The notes beneath the pieces are model-generated. The model had not been told where the DNA came from. It made no database searches and saw only the letters and a list, made by a program, of their open reading frames with translations. Position numbers and translations under genes: made by a program. DNA of 6,230 nucleotides from JBHIER01 sp046760705 [NCBI: bacterium] (GTDB lineage Bacteria; JBHIER01; G020348925), in NCBI GenBank assembly GCA_046760705.1, contig JBHIER010000211.1, positions 1 to 6,230 on the forward strand. The letters run 5' to 3'. This document shows positions 80 to 6,230 of the stretch, one piece after another (the stretch's first letter is position 1; each line of letters begins with the position of its first letter).

Positions 80-856
80 ATGACTACGGCTGGAGTCGAC
101 TGCGGAGCAAAGAATACGAAGGTGGTTCTTTTGAAAGATGGTAAGGTTTTGGCCAGGAGTACGGTCCTGAGTGGTTTTGATCAGAAGGCCGCGGCAGAGC
201 AATCCTTTGCCGAGGCATTGCTGATTGCCGGTCTTTCGAAGGATGACGTCGTACACATCACCGCCACCGGTGCGGGGATGAGGGAGGTCCACTTCGCTCA
301 CGAGACGATGACCGAGGTCGGGGCTGACGCCAAGGGGACCAATTTCCTTTTTCCTTCGGCTAAGACGGTGATCGATGTCGGTGCTGAAGAGGGCCGGGCC
401 ATCAAATGCGATGGGAAGGGTAAAGTGATCGATTTTGCCGTCAACGAAAAGTGTGCCGCCGGGGCTGGATCCTTCACCGAGGCCATGGCCAGAGCTTTGG
501 AGATAGAAGTGGAGCAGATGGGGCCGCTCTCCTTGAATTCGCACAAGGCTGTGCCGATGAACGCCCAGTGCGCCGTCTTCGCTGAATCTGAGGTGGTCTC
601 GCTCATCCACGCCAAAACCCCGAAGGAGGATATTGCCAGGGCTGTTCACGATGCGATTGCCGACCGGATTTCGTCCATGGTCCGGCGGATCGGCATCGAA
701 AAGGATGTGGCCCTCATCGGCGGTGTGGCGCGAAATGTTGGGTTTGTAAGATCTCTTGAAGGCAATTTGCAGGTCACGTTTTCCATACCCGATGAACCCG
801 AATATGTGAGTGCCCTGGGCGCAGCGCTGGCCGCGGCGGAACACGGCGGAGAGTAG
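80..856 (+). CDS. bzdP: benzoyl-CoA reductase ATPase/activase subunit, BzdP-like (BadF/BadG/BcrA/BcrD family)
   Basis: This 258-residue protein belongs to the ASKHA-fold BadF/BadG/BcrA/BcrD ATPases, which couple ATP hydrolysis to electron delivery in class I benzoyl-CoA reductase and 2-hydroxyacyl-CoA dehydratases. Visible motifs are phosphate loop 1 (AGVDCGAKNTKVV, residues 4-16), the second phosphate region (VIDVGAEEG, 97-105), the cluster-ligand loops EKCAAGAG (C125) and QCAVFAESE (C164), and the adenosine-binding segment IGGVARN (213-219). One Cys pair from each partner would bridge a [4Fe-4S] cluster across the dimer. The second phosphate region has GAEE where the partner at 1270-2139 has the usual GGQD. 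Two divergent paralogues side by side argue for benzoyl-CoA reductase rather than the homodimeric dehydratase activator. The length fits the short bzd-type subunits; the P assignment rests on order before the Q-like gene and is less certain than the family. Confidence 0.85.
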   Translation: MTTAGVDCGAKNTKVVLLKDGKVLARSTVLSGFDQKAAAEQSFAEALLIAGLSKDDVVHITATGAGMREVHFAHETMTEVGADAKGTNFLFPSAKTVIDVGAEEGRAIKCDGKGKVIDFAVNEKCAAGAGSFTEAMARALEIEVEQMGPLSLNSHKAVPMNAQCAVFAESEVVSLIHAKTPKEDIARAVHDAIADRISSMVRRIGIEKDVALIGGVARNVGFVRSLEGNLQVTFSIPDEPEYVSALGAALAAAEHGGE

Positions 857-872
857 GATGGTGACCTCTTTC

Positions 873-926
873 TATAGTCTAGGGCCTATGCTCGTAAATC
901 TTACGCCCATAAAGGGCTACACTACA
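873..926. repeat. imperfect inverted repeat, GTAGTGTAG family, copy 1
   Basis: The left arm at 873-897 (a diverged copy reading TAGTCTAGGGCC) faces a right arm at 901-926 that ends in GGGCTACACTACA. The two arms can fold on each other around a short ATC loop. The right part, 904-926, is repeated exactly at 1182-1204. Within it GCCC and GGGC can form a mini-stem across five bases. Confidence 0.7.
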
Positions 927-979
927 ATTTAATCTAGAGATGAAAGATATGAGGAGTAAAGGTGTTTCGAAATTCTACT

Positions 980-1002
980 GTAGTGTAGGGCCTTGTGCCC
1001 GT
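980..1002 (+). repeat. 23-base repeat unit, GTAGTGTAG family, copy 2
   Basis: This unit begins GTAGTGTAGGGCC and ends TGCCCGT. It is repeated exactly, all 23 bases, at 1217-1239, and is an approximate reverse complement of the 904-926 and 1182-1204 units. GGGC and GCCC around CTTGT form a small internal stem. It sits just before the CGAAA-rich element. Confidence 0.75.
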
Positions 1003-1011
1003 ATAGTACCT

Positions 1012-1163
1012 CGAAATCCGAAGCACGAAATACGAAATGCGAAAAAAACCTAAAATTAAAAACCCAAATGTAGAAAACTATGTTTCGAATTTCGCTCATT
1101 TTATATTCGGATTTGTTTCGAGTTTCGATATTCGAATTTCGAGTTTATCTGATTTCGCATTTC
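1012..1163. repeat. CGAAA/TTTCG-rich inverted-repeat element
   Basis: About 150 bases in which the left side is full of CGAAA words and the right side of TTTCG words, so the arms are largely complementary. A perfect 11-base inverted pair is GAAATGCGAAA at 1034-1044 and TTTCGCATTTC at 1153-1163. From memory, similar low-complexity CGAA-rich interspersed elements occur in several uncultured anaerobe genomes; that cannot be tested here. There is no coding content. It is bracketed by GTAGTGTAG-family units, which may be nested insertion or coincidence. Confidence 0.65.
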
Positions 1164-1181
1164 TTGGAGCAGAGCAAACGT

Positions 1182-1239
1182 CGCCCATAAAGGGCTACAC
1201 TACATTTTCTGGGCCAGTAGTGTAGGGCCTTGTGCCCGT
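1182..1239. repeat. inverted repeat, GTAGTGTAG family, copies 3 and 4
   Basis: Two 22-23-base units face each other: 1182-1204 (identical to 904-926) and 1217-1239 (identical to 980-1002). The facing ends CTACACTAC (1195-1203) and GTAGTGTAG (1217-1225) give a perfect 9-bp stem with a 13-base loop, and the outer parts pair imperfectly. No T-run follows, so it is not a classical intrinsic terminator. It ends only 30 bases before the BzdQ-like start, so folding could affect mRNA stability or translation there. Confidence 0.75.
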
Positions 1240-1256
1240 GAATCTGGTGCTTGTAA

Positions 1257-1261
1257 AGGGG
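1257..1261 (+). promoter_or_regulatory. ribosome binding site deciding the BzdQ-like start
   Basis: AGGGG lies 8 bases before the ATG at 1270. The in-frame GTG at 1261 overlaps this site and is therefore a poor start, so the ATG at 1270 is preferred. Confidence 0.6.
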
Positions 1262-1269
1262 TGTACAAA

Positions 1270-2139
1270 ATGGCAGAGGAATACTGGCGATGGAAGGAGT
1301 ACAATTGGCACTCGCCTGAGATCGATTGGCGAACCTCGGAGCTGATTACGGCCGGGGTTGACGTGGGCTCGGTCAGTTCTCAGGCGGTGATTATGAGTGA
1401 CGGTCAACTTTTTGCGTACAGCAACATGCGCACCGGTTCGGACAGCCCGGACAGCGCCAGGAAAGCCATGGACTGGGCCATGGAGGGGACGGAGATGAAG
1501 TTGGAGAACGTGCAATATATCGTCGGTACAGGCTACGGGCGGGTGAATGTTCCTTTTGCGAAGCGGCCCATAACCGAGATTGCCTGTCATGCTCGCGGCG
1601 CAAACTGGATGTACGGGTCGAGCGTGCGGACGGTCCTCGACATGGGCGGCCAGGACTGCAAGGCCATCCACTGCGACGAACGGGGCAAGGTGACCAACTT
1701 CCTCATGAACGACAAATGTGCCGCCGGGACGGGCCGGGGGATGGAGGTTTTTGCCGACCTATTGGCTGTATCCATCGAGGAGGTGGGAGATCTCTCCTTC
1801 GACGTCGATGAGGAACCGGAACCGGTGAGCAGTACCTGCGTCGTCTTCGCCAAGTCTGAGGCGACAGGGTTGTTGCGCCAAGGCTGGCCGAAGAGCAAGG
1901 TACTGGCCGCTTACTGCTCGGCCATGGCCCATCGCGTCTTCACTCTCTTAGAGCGCATCGGTGTGGAGAAAGAGTTTGCCATTACCGGTGGCATCGCTAA
2001 GAACTCCGGGGTGGTCAAACGATTGGAGAAGGAGATCGGCTTTGAAGCCCTCAGACCGAAACACGATACCCAGATAGCTGGAGCCATCGGAGCAGCCCTG
2101 TTTGCTAAGGCATTGCTGGAGAAGGAGAGAAAAAAGTAG
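1270..2139 (+). CDS. bzdQ: benzoyl-CoA reductase ATPase/activase subunit, BzdQ-like
   Basis: This 289-residue protein is the second BadF/BadG/BcrA/BcrD-family ATPase and the likely heterodimer partner of the 80-856 product. An N-terminal extension of about 27 residues rich in Trp/Tyr (EEYWRWKEYNWH) precedes the ATPase core, and to my knowledge this and the total length fit the bzd-type Q subunit. Core motifs: phosphate loop 1 AGVDVGSVSSQAV (28-40), phosphate loop 2 VLDMGGQDCKAI (122-133), ligand loops NDKCAAGTG (C150) and TCVVFAKSE (C190), and adenosine segment ITGGIAKNSG (238-247). C150 and C190 should bind half of the intersubunit [4Fe-4S] cluster. All canonical ATPase motifs are intact, unlike the altered second loop of the partner. 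Starting at GTG 1261 would add only three residues. It is separated from its partner gene by 413 repeat-filled bases, and its stop codon abuts another repeat. Confidence 0.88.
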   Translation: MAEEYWRWKEYNWHSPEIDWRTSELITAGVDVGSVSSQAVIMSDGQLFAYSNMRTGSDSPDSARKAMDWAMEGTEMKLENVQYIVGTGYGRVNVPFAKRPITEIACHARGANWMYGSSVRTVLDMGGQDCKAIHCDERGKVTNFLMNDKCAAGTGRGMEVFADLLAVSIEEVGDLSFDVDEEPEPVSSTCVVFAKSEATGLLRQGWPKSKVLAAYCSAMAHRVFTLLERIGVEKEFAITGGIAKNSGVVKRLEKEIGFEALRPKHDTQIAGAIGAALFAKALLEKERKK

Positions 2140-2321
2140 CCACAGAGGCACAGAGATATAAATAGTTGAATCGTACATGAATTTCCATTTTTTATTTCTG
2201 TCATTCTGAGCTTGTCTCAGAATCTCGTAGACCCTGAAACGAGCCTATCCTGGCGACAGGCCAGGGTTCAGGGTGAGAGAAAAAAGGTATAAGTTCATAA
2301 ATTCTCCGTGTCTCTGTGGCT
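2138..2321. repeat. nested palindromic element with CCACAGAGG-type ends
   Basis: The left arm AGCCACAGAGGCACAGAGA (2138-2156) matches the reverse complement of the right arm (2303-2321) at 17 of 19 bases. Inside are a perfect 8-bp hairpin, ATTCTGAG/CTCAGAAT with loop CTTGT (2203-2223), and a compound stem (2231-2274). The left arm starts within the stop codon of the BzdQ-like gene and the right arm ends 19 bases before the ferredoxin ATG, so the element fills the whole intergenic space. It has no transposase and resembles a small non-autonomous interspersed repeat. Confidence 0.75.
2231..2274. repeat. compound hairpin inside the 2138-2321 element
   Basis: An outer 8-bp stem, ACCCTGAA (2231-2238) with TTCAGGGT (2267-2274), encloses an inner 6-bp stem, CCTGGC (2249-2254) with GCCAGG (2260-2265) and loop GACAG. 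An A-rich, not T-rich, stretch follows on the + strand, so it is not a standard terminator for the upstream gene, though it could slow transcription or protect mRNA ends. Confidence 0.6.
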
Positions 2322-2327
2322 CAACAA

Positions 2328-2334
2328 AGGAAGG
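2328..2334 (+). promoter_or_regulatory. ribosome binding site of the ferredoxin gene
   Basis: AGGAAGG lies 6 bases before the ATG at 2341. This selects ATG 2341 over the in-frame GTG at 2308, which lies inside the repeat arm and lacks such a site. Confidence 0.7.
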
Positions 2335-2340
2335 TTCTCT

Positions 2341-2628
2341 ATGTTAGCTAACTATGGGTACAAGGACGGGTCGGGGGAGTATTTTATCACGGTCGATACC
2401 GAAAGATGCGACGGCTGCGGTGACTGCGTCGAGGCTTGCCCGGCAGGCGTCTTGGAGGTGGTTGAGGATCTGTACGATCCCATCGAGGGCGGTATGATCG
2501 CCTCGGTCACCGAAGAGCATCGAAAAAAGATCAAGTATAGCTGTGGGCCGTGCAAACCGGTGAGCCAGCGGCTGGCCCTGCCCTGTGTGGCGGCCTGCAA
2601 ACCGGATGCCATTACCCATTCCTGGTAG
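2341..2628 (+). CDS. dicluster [4Fe-4S] ferredoxin-like protein
   Basis: A 95-residue cytoplasmic protein without signal peptide. The first site is a classical ferredoxin motif, C23-x2-C26-x2-C29-x3-C33-P (CDGCGDCVEACP). The second is stretched: C68-x2-C71, ten residues, then C82-x3-C86-K-P. Eight Cys suit two [4Fe-4S] clusters, although the second site departs from the usual CxxCxxCxxxCP. It stands in the place of the BzdM ferredoxin that feeds benzoyl-CoA reductase in the Azoarcus bzd cluster, but the sequence alone does not prove orthology. The natural inference is that it carries electrons from the oxidoreductase beginning 11 bases after its stop to the ATPase subunits upstream. It could instead be a small electron-transfer subunit permanently bound to that oxidoreductase. 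Confidence 0.82.
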   Translation: MLANYGYKDGSGEYFITVDTERCDGCGDCVEACPAGVLEVVEDLYDPIEGGMIASVTEEHRKKIKYSCGPCKPVSQRLALPCVAACKPDAITHSW

Positions 2629-2639
2629 ATCGGGCTGGG

Positions 2640-5171
2640 ATGGTTTCATTAGATATAAACGGAAATCAAATTCAAGCAGGGGATTGTGTCACAATCTTGG
2701 AGGCTGCATTATCGGCCCACGTCTACATCCCGCACCTCTGCTCCCATCCTGACCTGCCTCCGATGAAGAGCTTGACTCCTCTCGAGGTCGTCTATAGAGG
2801 TGATGAGGCCATTCGGGGGACTTGTCCCGACCCCCTGCCTGAAGGGAAGGAGGGATGTCGGCTCTGCCTGGTGGAGCTTGAGGGAAGAGACGGGCTCCAT
2901 CGAGCCTGCACCACCATCGCCGAGGACGGGATGGTGGTTCTGACCCACACCCCTGCTGTTCAGCAAGCCCGCCGGGATAATCTGGCCCTCATCATGGCCA
3001 AACACCCTCACGCCTGCCTCACCTGTGCTCAGAAGGAGGGGTGCAGCCTGACCCAGTGTTCGACCAATGTCCCTGAGAAGGAGCGATGCTGCCCGAAGTT
3101 CGGCAGTTGTGAGCTGCAAAAGGTGGGCGAATACATTGGGATTGAAGAGGAAACTCCAAGGTGGATCCCCACTCATTTACCCATCTTTGAAGACGAGCCG
3201 CTCTTCAAGCGGGACTACAACCTGTGCATTGGATGCACCCGCTGCGTGCGGGCCTGTCGGGACCTGCGTGGGGTTGATTCTTTGGGGTTTGTCTATCGGG
3301 ATGGGGAAGTCCTCGTCGGCTCGGTCGCTCCTTCCTTGAGAGAATCGGCCTGCAAGTTCTGCACAGCCTGCGTCGAGGTCTGTCCCACCGGGGCGTTGGT
3401 CGACAAAGATGTGATAGGGGCCGACCGAGAAATCGCTCTGGTGCCCTGTCTTCACCACTGCCCGGCCCGGATCGATGTGCCCCGATACGTCCGACTCATT
3501 GCGCAGGGCAGATTTGCCGAAGCGGCCGCCGTCGTTCGGGAGAAGGTACCATTTCCGGAGATTTTAGGGCACGTCTGCTTTCATCCCTGCGAGGAGGTCT
3601 GCCGCCGTGGCGAGGTGGATGAGCCCATTGCCATATGTGCTCTGAAACGCTTTGCCGCTGAGAACGACTCGGGACCGGGAAAGGGGAATCTCAAAGTTGC
3701 CCCCGCAACAGAGAAACGGGTGGCCATTATTGGATCAGGACCGGCTGGCCTCACTGCGGCCTATTATTTGGCCAGGCTGGGTCACTCGGTGACCGTTTTC
3801 GAAGCTCTGCCCGAGCCCGGGGGGATGATGCGGGTAGGCCTGCCCCCGTATCGGTTGCCTACCGAAGTGCTGAAAAGAGAGATCGACAAGATCATTGCGC
3901 TGGGCGTGGAGATCAAGACCGACTCGCCGGTTGGAGGCACGAAGTCCCTCGCAGACCTTCAGGTTGAAGGGTTTGGTGCCATTTTCGTGGCCACAGGCAC
4001 ACCCTTGAGCAAAAGGCTGAATATTGACGGGACCGATTTAAAGGGCGTTCTGTGGGGATTGGATTTCCTGCGAGATGTGAACCTCGGCAAGGAGGTCGTG
4101 GTCAAGGATCGAGTGGCCGTTATCGGCGGTGGCAACGTGGCCGTCGATGTGGCCTTGACTGCCCGCCGCCTGGGAGCAAAGGAGATTTGGTTGGCCTGCC
4201 TCGAGTGTGCGGAAGAGATGCCGGCCCACCCATGGGAGATTCAAAAAGCGGTGGACGAGGGCATCGTTCTTCATCCCACCTGGGGACCGAAACGTATCTT
4301 TGGAAGAGATGGGAACGTTGCAGGGATAGATTTGATCCGATGTACCTCCGTCTTCGACGACGAGGGGAAGTTCAATCCATCCTTTGATGAATCGAAGACG
4401 AAGAGGATTGAGACTGACATGGTGATCTTAGCCATTGGTCAGTCGTCGGATTGCTCCTTTTTGGAAGGGGCAGGGCTTGAAACCACCGAGAGTGGGGCCG
4501 TAAAGATTGACAGCGAGACTCTGGCCACAAATGTCCCGGGTGTTTTCGCAGGCGGTGATTGCGTCGACGGTCCGACCTCGGTCATTGAGGCCGTTGCCGC
4601 AGGTCGGAAGGCGGCTGTCTCCATTGACAGGTTTTTGGGCGGTCGAGGAGAGGTCGACGAAACATTGGTTCCTTTGGAGAAGCCGGAGCGGAAGCTCGGC
4701 CGGGACGAGGGATTTGGGGATCGGCCGCGAGTCAAGATGGCGTGTCTGCCCATTAGTGAGCGAATAAAGAGTTTTGCTGAAATCGAGCTGGGTTATGACC
4801 CGAAACAGGCTACAGAAGAGGCAAAGCGCTGCTTGCAGTGCGATCTGCGGTTGGAGATGACTCCGGTCATATTTCCACCAGAGGTCGAAAAATGGTTGGA
4901 ATTTACTCCAGAAATATTAAATTCTGTTCCGGAAGTGGAAGGAGTCTTTCAACTGCTCGACGAAGGTAAAGAAGTATTGCAGATAACCGGGACGATGAAC
5001 CTGCGCCAGGGGTTGGAAGAGGCGCTGCACCAAAGCGAGAAAGCCAAGTATTTTCTCTTTGAAGAGAATCCTATGTATACCAAGCGGGAGAGTGAGCTCA
5101 TTCAGCAATACCTGAAAGACCATGGCCGCATGCCCGGCGAGAGATTGAACGAACTGGATGATCTGTTTTGA
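2640..5171 (+). CDS. multi-cluster FAD-dependent NAD(P)H oxidoreductase, NuoG-like/GltD-like fusion (BzdV-like role)
   Basis: This 843-residue protein fuses an iron-sulfur electron wire to a GltD-type flavoprotein. In order: a NuoG-like [2Fe-2S] domain (C34, C73, C76, C90); a His-Cys [4Fe-4S] segment (H122, C126, C129, and C157 in CELQ); two ferredoxin-type clusters (C196/199/202/206 and C238/241/244/248); a GltD/dihydropyrimidine dehydrogenase-type cluster domain (C270, C274, C313, C317, C321); an FAD Rossmann fold (GSGPAG, 365-370); an NAD(P)H fold (GGGNVAVD, 496-503); the closing FAD motif AGGD (637-640); a CLQC pair (731-734); and a roughly 100-residue tail ending LDDLF. It likely moves electrons from NAD(P)H to the adjacent ferredoxin, as proposed for BzdV in Azoarcus; the direction is inferred. 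ATG 2640 is chosen because upstream codons overlap the ferredoxin gene; its Shine-Dalgarno is weak, so coupling to the ferredoxin 11 bases earlier is likely. No membrane segments. It could also serve another ferredoxin-dependent enzyme. Confidence 0.85.
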   Translation: MVSLDINGNQIQAGDCVTILEAALSAHVYIPHLCSHPDLPPMKSLTPLEVVYRGDEAIRGTCPDPLPEGKEGCRLCLVELEGRDGLHRACTTIAEDGMVVLTHTPAVQQARRDNLALIMAKHPHACLTCAQKEGCSLTQCSTNVPEKERCCPKFGSCELQKVGEYIGIEEETPRWIPTHLPIFEDEPLFKRDYNLCIGCTRCVRACRDLRGVDSLGFVYRDGEVLVGSVAPSLRESACKFCTACVEVCPTGALVDKDVIGADREIALVPCLHHCPARIDVPRYVRLIAQGRFAEAAAVVREKVPFPEILGHVCFHPCEEVCRRGEVDEPIAICALKRFAAENDSGPGKGNLKVAPATEKRVAIIGSGPAGLTAAYYLARLGHSVTVFEALPEPGGMMRVGLPPYRLPTEVLKREIDKIIALGVEIKTDSPVGGTKSLADLQVEGFGAIFVATGTPLSKRLNIDGTDLKGVLWGLDFLRDVNLGKEVVVKDRVAVIGGGNVAVDVALTARRLGAKEIWLACLECAEEMPAHPWEIQKAVDEGIVLHPTWGPKRIFGRDGNVAGIDLIRCTSVFDDEGKFNPSFDESKTKRIETDMVILAIGQSSDCSFLEGAGLETTESGAVKIDSETLATNVPGVFAGGDCVDGPTSVIEAVAAGRKAAVSIDRFLGGRGEVDETLVPLEKPERKLGRDEGFGDRPRVKMACLPISERIKSFAEIELGYDPKQATEEAKRCLQCDLRLEMTPVIFPPEVEKWLEFTPEILNSVPEVEGVFQLLDEGKEVLQITGTMNLRQGLEEALHQSEKAKYFLFEENPMYTKRESELIQQYLKDHGRMPGERLNELDDLF

Positions 5172-5188: not shown

Positions 5189-5398
5189 ATGGCAAAGATT
5201 GCAAAGGAAGACATAATCATTCGAGTCATTAGACTTAAGGATTACGATTGCATCGTTGAGATTGATGCCCGAATCACGGGTAAAAGACGCATGAACTATT
5301 ATCGCCGAAAATTAGACCTGGCCCTTGACGATGAGCAGCAGATCGTCACCTCTCTTGGCCACAAAATTGCACAAAAAGACACAAAAAAGAAAGAGTAA
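5189..5398 (+). CDS. small basic protein of unknown function, 69 residues
   Basis: I do not recognise this family. The N-terminal part (MAKIAKEDIIIRVIRLKDYD) alternates hydrophobic and charged residues as in a beta strand. The middle holds a basic patch (ITGKRRMNYYRRK, 29-41), and the acidic DDEQQ (47-51) follows. There is one Cys (C21) and no metal motif, signal peptide or membrane helix. It starts 17 bases after the oxidoreductase stop, so it probably shares its transcript. From about residue 57 onward (GHKIAQKDTKKKE) the coding sequence is a CCACAAAA-type repeat arm (5357-5389), so the lysine-rich tail is probably a late addition to a roughly 56-residue core. The basic patch could bind nucleic acid or an acidic partner, but nothing shows this. 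Confidence 0.6.
   Translation: MAKIAKEDIIIRVIRLKDYDCIVEIDARITGKRRMNYYRRKLDLALDDEQQIVTSLGHKIAQKDTKKKE
5357..5389 (+). repeat. CCACAAAA-type repeat arm inside a coding sequence
   Basis: GGCCACAAAATTGCACAAAA and the bases after it closely match the arm at 6158-6187, with CACAAA words at the same spacing. It lies in frame at the 3' end of the 69-residue gene and encodes its Lys-rich tail. No matching right arm or inner hairpin follows, so it is a solo or decayed arm. Confidence 0.6.
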
Positions 5399-5401
5399 TT
5401 T

Positions 5402-5650
5402 GTGAAATCAGAAGACAGCAGATTGATTATGACAAAGGAGAAGGAACTCAAACGGAAGGGTTGGGAGAAGCGGTCAGTGGTTGATGAGCCCCGGGTGAAG
5501 GAACTGGTAGGGCTCTACACATCCTTGGGGTTTGAGGTCCGGGTTGAGCCGGTCCGCCCTGAAGAGATGGTCGGCGAATGCACGGAATGCTTTGAGGTGG
5601 ATTGTACAAAGTACAGGGCTATTTATACGAGACGCAAGCCACAAAATTGA
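5402..5650 (+). CDS. small protein with C-x2-C-x4-C motif, unknown function, 82 residues
   Basis: Not recognised as a named family. The core runs from about residue 20 (GWEKRSVVDEPRVKELVGLY), a helix-like segment, through a strand-like segment (GFEVRVEPVRPEEM, 43-56), to a Cys-containing end, C60-x2-C63-x4-C68, followed by KYRAIYTRRK. Three closely spaced Cys could bind a metal or cluster with a partner ligand, but a fourth ligand is not obvious. The GTG at 5402 is 3 bases after the previous stop and could be translationally coupled. An in-frame ATG at 5429 would remove nine residues, and neither has a strong ribosome binding site, so the start is uncertain. The last codons (Pro-Gln-Asn) and the TGA stop come from a GCCACAAAATTGA repeat arm at 5638-5650. 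Possibly an accessory factor of the redox module; this is guilt by position only. Confidence 0.6.
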   Translation: MKSEDSRLIMTKEKELKRKGWEKRSVVDEPRVKELVGLYTSLGFEVRVEPVRPEEMVGECTECFEVDCTKYRAIYTRRKPQN

Positions 5651-5753
5651 GCCACAAAATCACACAAAAGGGCACAAAACTTGGAGGCAACAGACGGAGA
5701 TCCTGAAATGAATTCAGGATGACATTTCGTGAGATTTTGTGAAGTTTTGTGGC
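5638..5753. repeat. CCACAAAA-type palindromic element, complete copy
   Basis: Two tandem GCCACAAAAT starts (5638 and 5651) lead into CACAAAA words. A perfect 8-bp hairpin, ATCCTGAA/TTCAGGAT with loop ATGAA (5700-5720), sits in the middle. The right arm, ending GTTTTGTGGC at 5744-5753, is the approximate reverse complement of the left. Bases 5651-5722 recur at 6159-6230 with 70 of 72 identical. The plan, CCACA-type outer arms around a CTGA-type hairpin, is the same as in the 2138-2321 element. The element closes the 82-residue gene and ends 8 bases before the ribosome binding site of the next. Confidence 0.8.
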
Positions 5754-5761
5754 CTAAAAAA

Positions 5762-5766
5762 AGGAG
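5762..5766 (+). promoter_or_regulatory. ribosome binding site of the GxxExxY gene
   Basis: AGGAG lies 5 bases before the GTG at 5772. It selects this start over the in-frame GTG at 5739, which falls inside the repeat's right arm. Confidence 0.6.
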
Positions 5767-5771
5767 AGTTT

Positions 5772-6146
5772 GTGGCTGAGGAGATTTTATACAAGGATTT
5801 GAATTACAAAATTGTCGGGGCGCCGTTTGAGGTTTATAAGGTACTTGGATATGGATTCCTGGAAAAGGTTTACGAAAATGCTTTACTCGTAGAATTGAGG
5901 TTGCAGGGTATACCTGCCGAAGGTCAACATCCCGTTGATGTGCTTTATAAGGGTGAACAGGTTGGGGAATACAGAGCAGATATTCTGGTTGAGAACAAAA
6001 TTATTGTTGAATTGAAAGCAGAGAAGGAGTACAATCCAACCCATGAGGCACAACTTATCAATTATCTCAAAGCTACCGGAATTAAAGTTGGAATTTTGAT
6101 AAACTTTGGTGAGAAAAAATGCGAACACAAACGGTTAATCTATTAA
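5772..6146 (+). CDS. GxxExxY family protein
   Basis: A 124-residue protein (GTG start) of the GxxExxY family, named for a motif seen here as GFLEKVY (28-34) in the context YKVLGYGFLEKVYENAL. A later segment, YRADILVENKIIVELKA (68-84), has an Asp (D70) followed by E80-x-K82 on a strand, the pattern expected of a PD-(D/E)xK nuclease-like fold. The conserved helix EAQLINYLKATG (92-103) and the strand KVGILINFG (105-113) complete the usual length. The biological role of the family is not established; nuclease activity is a fold-based inference. The gene is visibly richer in A+T than the redox genes and lies between two nearly identical direct repeats, so it looks like an acquired or mobile passenger and not part of the benzoyl-CoA pathway. 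No signal peptide or membrane helix. Confidence 0.85.
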   Translation: MAEEILYKDLNYKIVGAPFEVYKVLGYGFLEKVYENALLVELRLQGIPAEGQHPVDVLYKGEQVGEYRADILVENKIIVELKAEKEYNPTHEAQLINYLKATGIKVGILINFGEKKCEHKRLIY

Positions 6147-6230
6147 GCCACAAAATCGGCCACAAAATTACACAAAAGGGCACAAAACTTGGAGGCAACA
6201 GACGGAGATCCTGAAATGAGTTCAGGATGA
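6147..6230. repeat. CCACAAAA-type palindromic element, second copy cut by the window end
   Basis: It begins directly after the TAA of the GxxExxY gene with tandem GCCACAAAAT units at 6147 and 6159, then matches 5651-5722 at 70 of 72 bases, including the ATCCTGAA/TTCAGGAT hairpin with loop ATGAG. The right arm would lie beyond the window. Confidence 0.8.

Follow-up and report, generated by a model that had tools for sequence, protein, structure and literature searches.

We have found that genes of the GxxExxY family, together with the inverted arms that surround them, form a unit that comes and goes, in both phylum samples of our survey and in single records elsewhere; the encoded nuclease would itself move this unit, by reading the words of which the arms are composed. 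The explanation that we favour, with moderate confidence, is that GxxExxY is the only gene of a mobile element and encodes a nuclease that recognises the arms of that element, and that the window, i.e. the whole stretch of 6,230 nucleotides that has been analysed, holds an element of this kind with CACAAAA words, flanked by solo units.

The repeat and the gene of the window

The preliminary description of this DNA had reported a 72-base direct pair around a GxxExxY gene, and both elements of that report are borne out: positions 5651-5722 and 6159-6230 are identical at 70 of 72 bases, with a spacing of 508 bp (a 79-nt pair, 5644-5722 and 6152-6230, of 94% in the register of the repeat tool), and the gene between them matches only GxxExxY and PDDEXK_3 in the profile scan (TIGR04256, 149.6 bits against a curated cut-off of 35; PF13366, 145.8 bits against 22), scores that place it in the family. 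The accompanying picture of two copies holds for the pair itself, but not for its confinement to two copies, as words of the repeat recur at 5357-5386, 5637-5650 and 6146-6157. Copy 2 stops at the final base of the window (6230), so that 72 bases are a minimum length. Copy 1 is the left portion of a palindrome of ~105 bp (5650-5754), the second arm of which is located at 5725-5754; the arms of the palindrome carry CACAAAA-type words ~10 bp apart, and the DNA fold of 5650-5754 has an energy of -20.6 kcal/mol (z -4.36), with 0 of 200 shuffles being equally stable. The features of the locus are the following:

5357-5386, + strand: additional forward arm GGCCACAAAATTGCACAAAAAGACACAAAA, coding the C-terminus of a 69-aa ORF, 5189-5398 (repeat and ORF analysis)
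5637-5650, + strand: lone forward word AGCCACAAAATTGA, coding the C-terminus and stop of an 82-aa ORF, 5402-5650 (sequence, repeat and ORF analysis)
5650-5754, no strand: palindromic solo unit made of forward arm, REP-like hairpin and reverse arm, containing copy 1 (DNA fold)
5650-5679, + strand: forward arm with three CACAAAA words at ~10-bp pitch, AGCCACAAAATCACACAAAAGGGCACAAAA (repeat analysis)
5700-5720, no strand: small REP-like palindrome ATCCTGAA-ATGAA-TTCAGGAT within the arm pair (sequence; inner hairpin of the fold)
5725-5754, - strand: reverse arm, complement GGCCACAAAACTTCACAAAATCTCACGAAA, inverted to 5651-5679 (76%) and 6158-6187 (80%)
5772-6146, + strand: GxxExxY (PDDEXK_3) nuclease gene, stop TAA at 6144-6146 (TIGR04256, PF13366)
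6146-6187, + strand: forward words after the gene, i.e. a lone AGCCACAAAA at 6146-6155 and then a three-word arm at 6158-6187 (repeat analysis)
6159-6230, + strand: direct-repeat copy 2, ended by the end of the sequence (repeat analysis)

A reverse arm would be expected immediately past position 6230. Two properties of the window count against its reading as a one-gene element: the arms that are nearest to the gene point the opposite way from the usual order, and the right arm on the outside falls past the end of the sequence. The Rfam scan of the window has returned no RNA family and no rRNA, and the terminator scan was empty; repeat patterns of 25-29 bases have given zero matches in the viral contig collection, and the 25-base repeat core zero matches in the genome contig collection.

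The gene probably starts at GTG 5772, behind AAGGAG, rather than at GTG 5739, where the open frame begins, since AAGGAG lies upstream of the former and the first 15 residues of the longer frame are modelled with a pLDDT below 50. Across the aligned loci, GxxE is conserved in 106/106, D in 105/106, and the E and the K of ExK in 103/106 and 106/106, respectively, all of them being present in the window protein as well; GxxE, Y, D, ExK, Q and R are near-invariant across the 106 sequences, and we take GxxE, D and ExK to be the catalytic residues, from general knowledge of the PD-(D/E)XK superfamily. Values of dN/dS between 0.03 and 0.40 in 13 pairs indicate purifying selection on the gene.

Two further observations concern the surroundings of the locus. 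The arm words supply the last codons and the stops of two small ORFs of unknown identity (5189-5398 and 5402-5650), at which the insertion may have re-ended host genes. Positions 80-5171 hold a cluster of the anaerobic aromatic type, with an activase-like ATPase, a BzdQ-like subunit (TIGR03192, 442 bits), a ferredoxin and an 843-aa NuoG/GltD-like oxidoreductase.

Inverted arms at GxxExxY loci and their coupling to the protein

GxxExxY is common in the sampled groups, occurring in 37 of the 60 genomes of the G002 phylum (36 above the cut-off) and in 29 of the 121 genomes of the G001 phylum, where “phylum” and “family”, when applied to G-labelled genomes, denote sampling groups. The first five relatives were found by protein search, and four genomes then held 29 places. 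From 146 domain hits, the removal of L001-L004 (places duplicated by later loci) and of partial domains has left 125, of which 122 have both flanks; these 122 instances comprise both phylum samples, the 29 places in four genomes, 40 extra loci and the window. Repeated places among them (overlapping L024/L029, and second domains of L056, L057 and L062) all have a profile score below 100, and are thus excluded from what we refer to as the canonical set, i.e. the loci that score at least 100: 103 loci from 48 genomes, the window being one.

The inverted score, i.e. the match between the 200-bp flanks, is considered strong at 30 or above and weak at 24 or above. In the canonical set, 67/103 loci reach 30 and 91/103 reach 24; the remaining 12/103, with no inverted match even at the weak level, count against the one-gene-element reading. 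The median inverted score over the 122 instances is 31, against 17 in mismatched loci and 17 in shifted windows of the same locus, and a score of at least 30 is reached by 68/122 instances, against 36/1209 mismatched loci and 2/467 same-locus shifts, both of these controls having been built on the wider set of 122 and not on the 103. Genes of NTP_transf_2, taken as a further control from 15 genomes (those of the S23 test described below), reach 30 in 0/30 cases; 25 of these 30 matches have frames of at most 160 aa, and among them the count is 0/25.

The arms are composed of tandem 7-base words, about three in each, at a pitch of 9-10 bp (autocorrelation peaks at 9 and 10, 85 loci), and the unit, measured from arm to arm, has a median length of 532 bp (10th-90th percentile 448-609; 74 loci with clear arms). 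The word varies among loci, but is the same in both arms of one locus; within the four genomes, inverted tracts are present in many of the flanks, with the words CACAGAG, CACGGAT, CGCAGAT, CGCGAAT, CGCAAAG and CGCCAAG. At L001, the gene lies between GCCACAGAAACACACGGAACCACACAGAA and its near inverse, flanked by genes that we read as nuoA-like and nuoE-like, while L002 and L003 carry near-identical genes and similar flanking tracts in different surroundings on one contig. Members with a profile score below 100, i.e. divergent or two-domain proteins, have no strong arms, with the exception of L022 (score 43). Among such proteins, those of L024, L056 and L057 (frames of 279, 279 and 271 aa), which lack strong arms, may be domesticated forms.

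Eight plasmid records from named organisms have been scored on flanks of 170 bases, against 200 elsewhere. Inverted arms are present in Bacteroides finegoldii (45) and Bernardetia (36), and short in Treponema (22); the other five score 13-16, so that 6/8 remain below 30, which counts against the one-gene-element reading. The Fusobacteria ZRK30 and Prevotella records have direct repeats instead (59 and 49).

Long direct repeats (Smith-Waterman score of at least 40) are found at 24/103 loci, the window included, against 1/398 same-locus shifts and 0/824 mismatched pairs: they are recurrent, beyond chance, but inverted arms are the more general feature. At the loci inspected by eye, the direct repeats are extra arm copies or a short palindromic arm pair; at L083, L045 and L085, the repeated stretch is such a pair on either side of the gene, as in the window. 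The early suggestion that GxxExxY genes travel with repeats of this kind must therefore be amended, in that repeats do accompany the gene, but those that define the unit are inverted, and the direct kind is secondary. We give next to no credence to the explanation that the direct repeat of the window is a local duplication or an assembly effect only; copy 2 does run into the sequence end, and assemblies commonly stop there within repeats, but the copies differ at two positions, and the recurrence of direct repeats exceeds both controls.

The comparison of arm words with proteins has revealed a coupling of the two: the sharing of arm-word k-mers between genomes rises from 0.05 at 30-40% protein identity to 0.53 at 70% or above, and words and proteins are correlated with r=0.43 (3373 between-genome pairs, 84 loci; 0/2000 permutations). 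Such pairs consist in part of the same insertion in relatives; when these are eliminated by restriction to cross-phylum pairs, a set from which the window is excluded, the correlation is r=0.317 (1650 pairs of 83 loci; 0/5000 permutations, null maximum 0.144). The proteins nearest to that of the window (L066, 68%; L023/L025, 64%; L011, as L001, 62%) are accompanied by CACAGAA words, a single letter off the CACAAAA of the window. It follows from the coupling that the arms are inherited as one unit with the gene. The protein may also recognise the words; the coupling could instead reflect plain co-inheritance, which counts against the recognition reading.

Presence and absence of the unit, and tracts that stand alone

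Insertion polymorphism has been observed at orthologous sites in relatives, the window's own locus lying outside this evidence. In the preliminary description, the gene and a repeat copy had been proposed to arrive as a unit; the arrival is supported, as gene plus arms are present or absent at the same site in relatives, but the unit is bounded by inverted arms. Two near-identical genes with similar flanking tracts occur at two places on one G002 contig (L023 and L025), and in G018, which is closely related to G002, the sites opposite L023, L025 and L012 are empty (hits of 92%, 90% and 84% identity; the query comprised 4110 of 4420 bases, omitting L039, and sites were not derived for L014, L008, L095 and L101). 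At the empty site opposite L023, the gene junction is read straight through, and the insert of the filled site starts with AAAACCACAGAA and ends with GTGGCTTAATAAAAGGGGCAG; the only candidate for a target duplication is 2-3 shared A. Target-site duplications have been sought in 74 armed loci, where direct repeats outside the arms occur in 4/74, all four with arm-like tracts there, and no excision product of the unit has been seen; both results count against the one-gene-element reading.

At the nuoA-nuoE site of the G001 family (12 main loci, L133-L144, of which 7 were read by anchor, leaving out L134, L137, L139, L141 and L144), L133 holds the full unit, L136 an internally deleted gene with both arms kept and L138 the right arm alone; L135 is empty, and L140, L142 and L143 hold other short inserts. 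At two sites of the G165 family, each occupied in 6/9 genomes, unoccupied in 2 and not found in 1, stops inside the gene are known in 3/12 occupied copies (G173 and G141 at site 2, G173 at site 1): some copies of the unit are decaying. At site 2, G106, G173, G141 and G197 share CACAGAT arms and one protein, and G165 and G097 have CACGAAT arms and a protein of 62-65% identity, so that the gene and both arms differ together; the host flanks of the five other occupied genomes are 92-97% identical to the G106 query, and a leftover TTCGTGGC adjoins the CACAGAT arm. It seems that one of the two elements has taken the place of the other at this site. In the sites that were read, the units are inserted at gene junctions.

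Some sites hold remnants or other tracts. In L142 and L143 (nuo site) and L215 (site 2), which lack the GxxExxY unit, short tracts that, by eye, seem periodic at 7 bp occupy the same gene junctions. The comparison of L253 with L020 shows a mosaic scar in G018: at one site, a left arm and a residual right arm belong to different word types, and the 196 bases between them are too few for a GxxExxY gene. Readings based on a promoter only, an operator only or plain gene loss have been discarded in view of the insertion polymorphism.

A host or defence nuclease, for which the tracts would be binding sites or operators and presence or absence would be ordinary gain and loss of a gene, is a very improbable explanation. 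A binding site would fit the coupling of word and protein, and no function is established in the literature found under the family names; such a nuclease is at odds with the two near-identical copies that lie, arms included, at unrelated sites of one contig and are both absent in a close relative, and the family has given no match among 50,697 phage records.

Word tracts are also present outside the GxxExxY loci. Tracts of three CACAGA words have 88 matches in 8/9 genomes, with 0 for the backwards pattern, and of 30 sampled tracts (L197 and L205 among them being overlapping matches at one place), only 1/30 is located at a GxxExxY gene, which counts against the one-gene-element reading. A strict reverse-arm pattern finds partners for 9/30 tracts; in a looser and weak test, ~10/30 show an inverted match of at least 27 no further than 60 bp away, and at 30 or above the count is 4/30 against 8/145 in the control, with no separation, control loci carrying arms too. 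The frequency of solo pairs is thus only roughly known.

These counts bear on a rival explanation that we regard as unlikely, in which a REP/RAYT-like or IS transposase would move the arms, these being mobile palindromic repeats, and GxxExxY would be their passenger or regulator. It draws on the excess of tracts over GxxExxY genes of that word type (88 matches, 1/30 at a gene), on the ~10/30 tracts with a nearby inverted partner in the weak test and on the REP-like hairpin within the arm pair of the window. It is opposed by the tracking of the GxxExxY protein by the word across phyla, which is not required of a passenger, by the catalytic residues and the purifying selection, and by the capacity of the ~530-bp units, which fit little beyond one gene; profile searches of the seven scanned window ORFs have found no transposase, including Y1/HUH transposases.

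Palindromic tracts of other kinds have been observed as well. In the window, an inverted pair of CACAGAG words (AGCCACAGAGGCACAGAGA at 2138-2156 and its inverse at 2303-2321) surrounds a REP-like stretch with no gene inside, and represents a second word type among the solo units. Inverted CGAAAT-word tracts at 1010-1037 and 1116-1143, with a 7-bp step by eye, resemble S23-type arms and are nested between copies of a GTAGTGTAGGGCC repeat at 980-1002 and 1217-1239. In L094, L241, L245 and L256, a second palindromic element, CCCTGTTAAATA ... TATTTAACAGGG and variants, lies inside CGCAGAT arms, as if the arms were its target.

The nuclease, its putative action and the known systems

The structure model of the window protein has a pLDDT of 88.3. 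Its closest solved fold is SSO0001 (4ic1), which we take to be a Cas4 (Foldseek E 1.3e-4), followed by LHK-Exo (6.8e-4); in the VIA comparison, the model aligns with SSO0001 over 97 residues (Z 10.3, rmsd 3.5, 21% identity), and many nucleases follow, among them other restriction-type folds and, further down, Hjc resolvases. The modelled fold supports a nuclease, and does not give the substrate. A sequence search for a solved GxxExxY structure has found none, with one match at chance level (E 0.74), and no cas gene is present among the seven scanned window ORFs.

Arms of this kind are not unique to GxxExxY, which counts against the one-gene-element reading: S23/four-helix genes of the same genomes (L148-L177, the 30 fetched loci that the test covers) also lie between inverted tandem-word arms, 23/30 scoring at least 30 against 2/234 mismatched pairs. 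The period of the S23 arms is exactly 7 bp (26 loci; 0.67 at lag 7, 0.65 at lag 14). Rfam has found no rRNA over the 30 S23 loci, but only two tRNAs and one CRISPR repeat, the latter being a direct-repeat match at the edge of an S23 locus (L148, positions 5-34; RF01315, 50.1 bits). Passages of PMC4990558 describe an S23 ORF in an insert of the 23S rRNA, between terminal inverted repeats with tandem heptamers, where RNase III excises the insert, and cite hypotheses of a mobile-element origin for it.

This published insert, the S23-family genes with similar arms in our genomes and the location of the units at gene junctions in the sites read are the grounds for an explanation at the RNA level, by which the arms would pair in transcripts, RNase III would remove or process the insert, and the nuclease would act on RNA or be a by-product. 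We find it quite improbable: the pitch is exactly 7 in S23 against 9-10 in GxxExxY, a value that suggests one turn of B-DNA; DNA nucleases make up most of the nearest folds, RNA-splicing endonucleases being lower in the list; and no Rfam family occurs in the window.

In the one-gene-element explanation that we prefer, an element of ~0.5 kb (~530 bp) would consist of one gene and two inverted arms of about three 7-base words each, with a word spacing of 9-10 bp that would correspond to about one turn of DNA. The GxxExxY protein would bind its own arm words, or a hairpin or cruciform formed by the arms, and would cut the DNA at the arms, whereupon the unit would move. Solo arm pairs would be non-autonomous copies on which the protein acts in trans, and extra solo copies next to the gene would give rise to direct repeats such as those of the window. 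Far more tentatively, and with doubt prevailing, these elements could be a new class of autonomous mobile DNA, in which a single Cas4/Hjc-like PD-(D/E)XK nuclease, with no transposase, reads the tandem 7-base words that are set at intervals of one helical turn in the two inverted arms, word and protein co-evolve, the word is a lineage-specific address, and displacement occurs by landing in older arms.

The literature under the family names, most subscription papers and all preprints lying outside that search, assigns GxxExxY no role and holds nothing that links it to arms or mobility; among the matches listed in the broader literature, no such element is described, and the matches to arm word strings are unrelated by title. 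GxxExxY is mentioned once in PMC8934634, as a mere domain label near a reverse transcriptase, and once in PMC12085832. The half-kilobase GxxExxY unit appears to be the core of a small mobile element as yet undescribed. If GxxExxY does power elements of variable word, the gene family and many short intergenic palindromes would be explained, and natural pairs of protein and word variants would become available to study the reading of DNA by a small nuclease.

Among the known systems, IS or DDE transposons differ from the GxxExxY unit, which has a median length of 532 bp and no target-site duplication, with no transposase match in the window ORFs. Bacterial MITEs resemble the solo arm pairs (such as 5650-5754) in being short, palindromic and gene-free, but the window has yielded no parental IS, and the gene-bearing units no target duplication beyond their arms. 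The REP/RAYT system is similar in that a nuclease gene is tied to palindromic repeats that also occur alone genome-wide; the RAYT enzymes are HUH/Y1 transposases, however, and GxxExxY is a PD-(D/E)XK nuclease, with arms of tandem words that vary from copy to copy within a genome. With Cas4, the point of comparison is the modelled fold, SSO0001 being the nearest solved structure, alongside lambda-exonuclease-like nucleases and with many other nucleases following; Cas4 carries four Fe-S cysteines, however, and the GxxExxY protein lacks these, having one cysteine from V12 on.

The S23 intervening sequence (TIGR02436; PMC4990558) shares with the GxxExxY unit a lone small gene and inverted terminal arms of tandem short words; the proteins are unrelated, the S23 period is exactly 7 bp as opposed to 9-10 bp, and the insert as published there lies in 23S rRNA, whereas the window has no rRNA, and the gene between its arms is no S23 ORF. 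By analogy, this likeness points to more than one origin of one-gene elements that carry tandem-word arms, and it opens the long-standing question of the 23S intervening sequences to tests from a new side. The GxxExxY units are built like S23 elements but are not members of that group, since their gene and their pitch are different and they are located outside rRNA.
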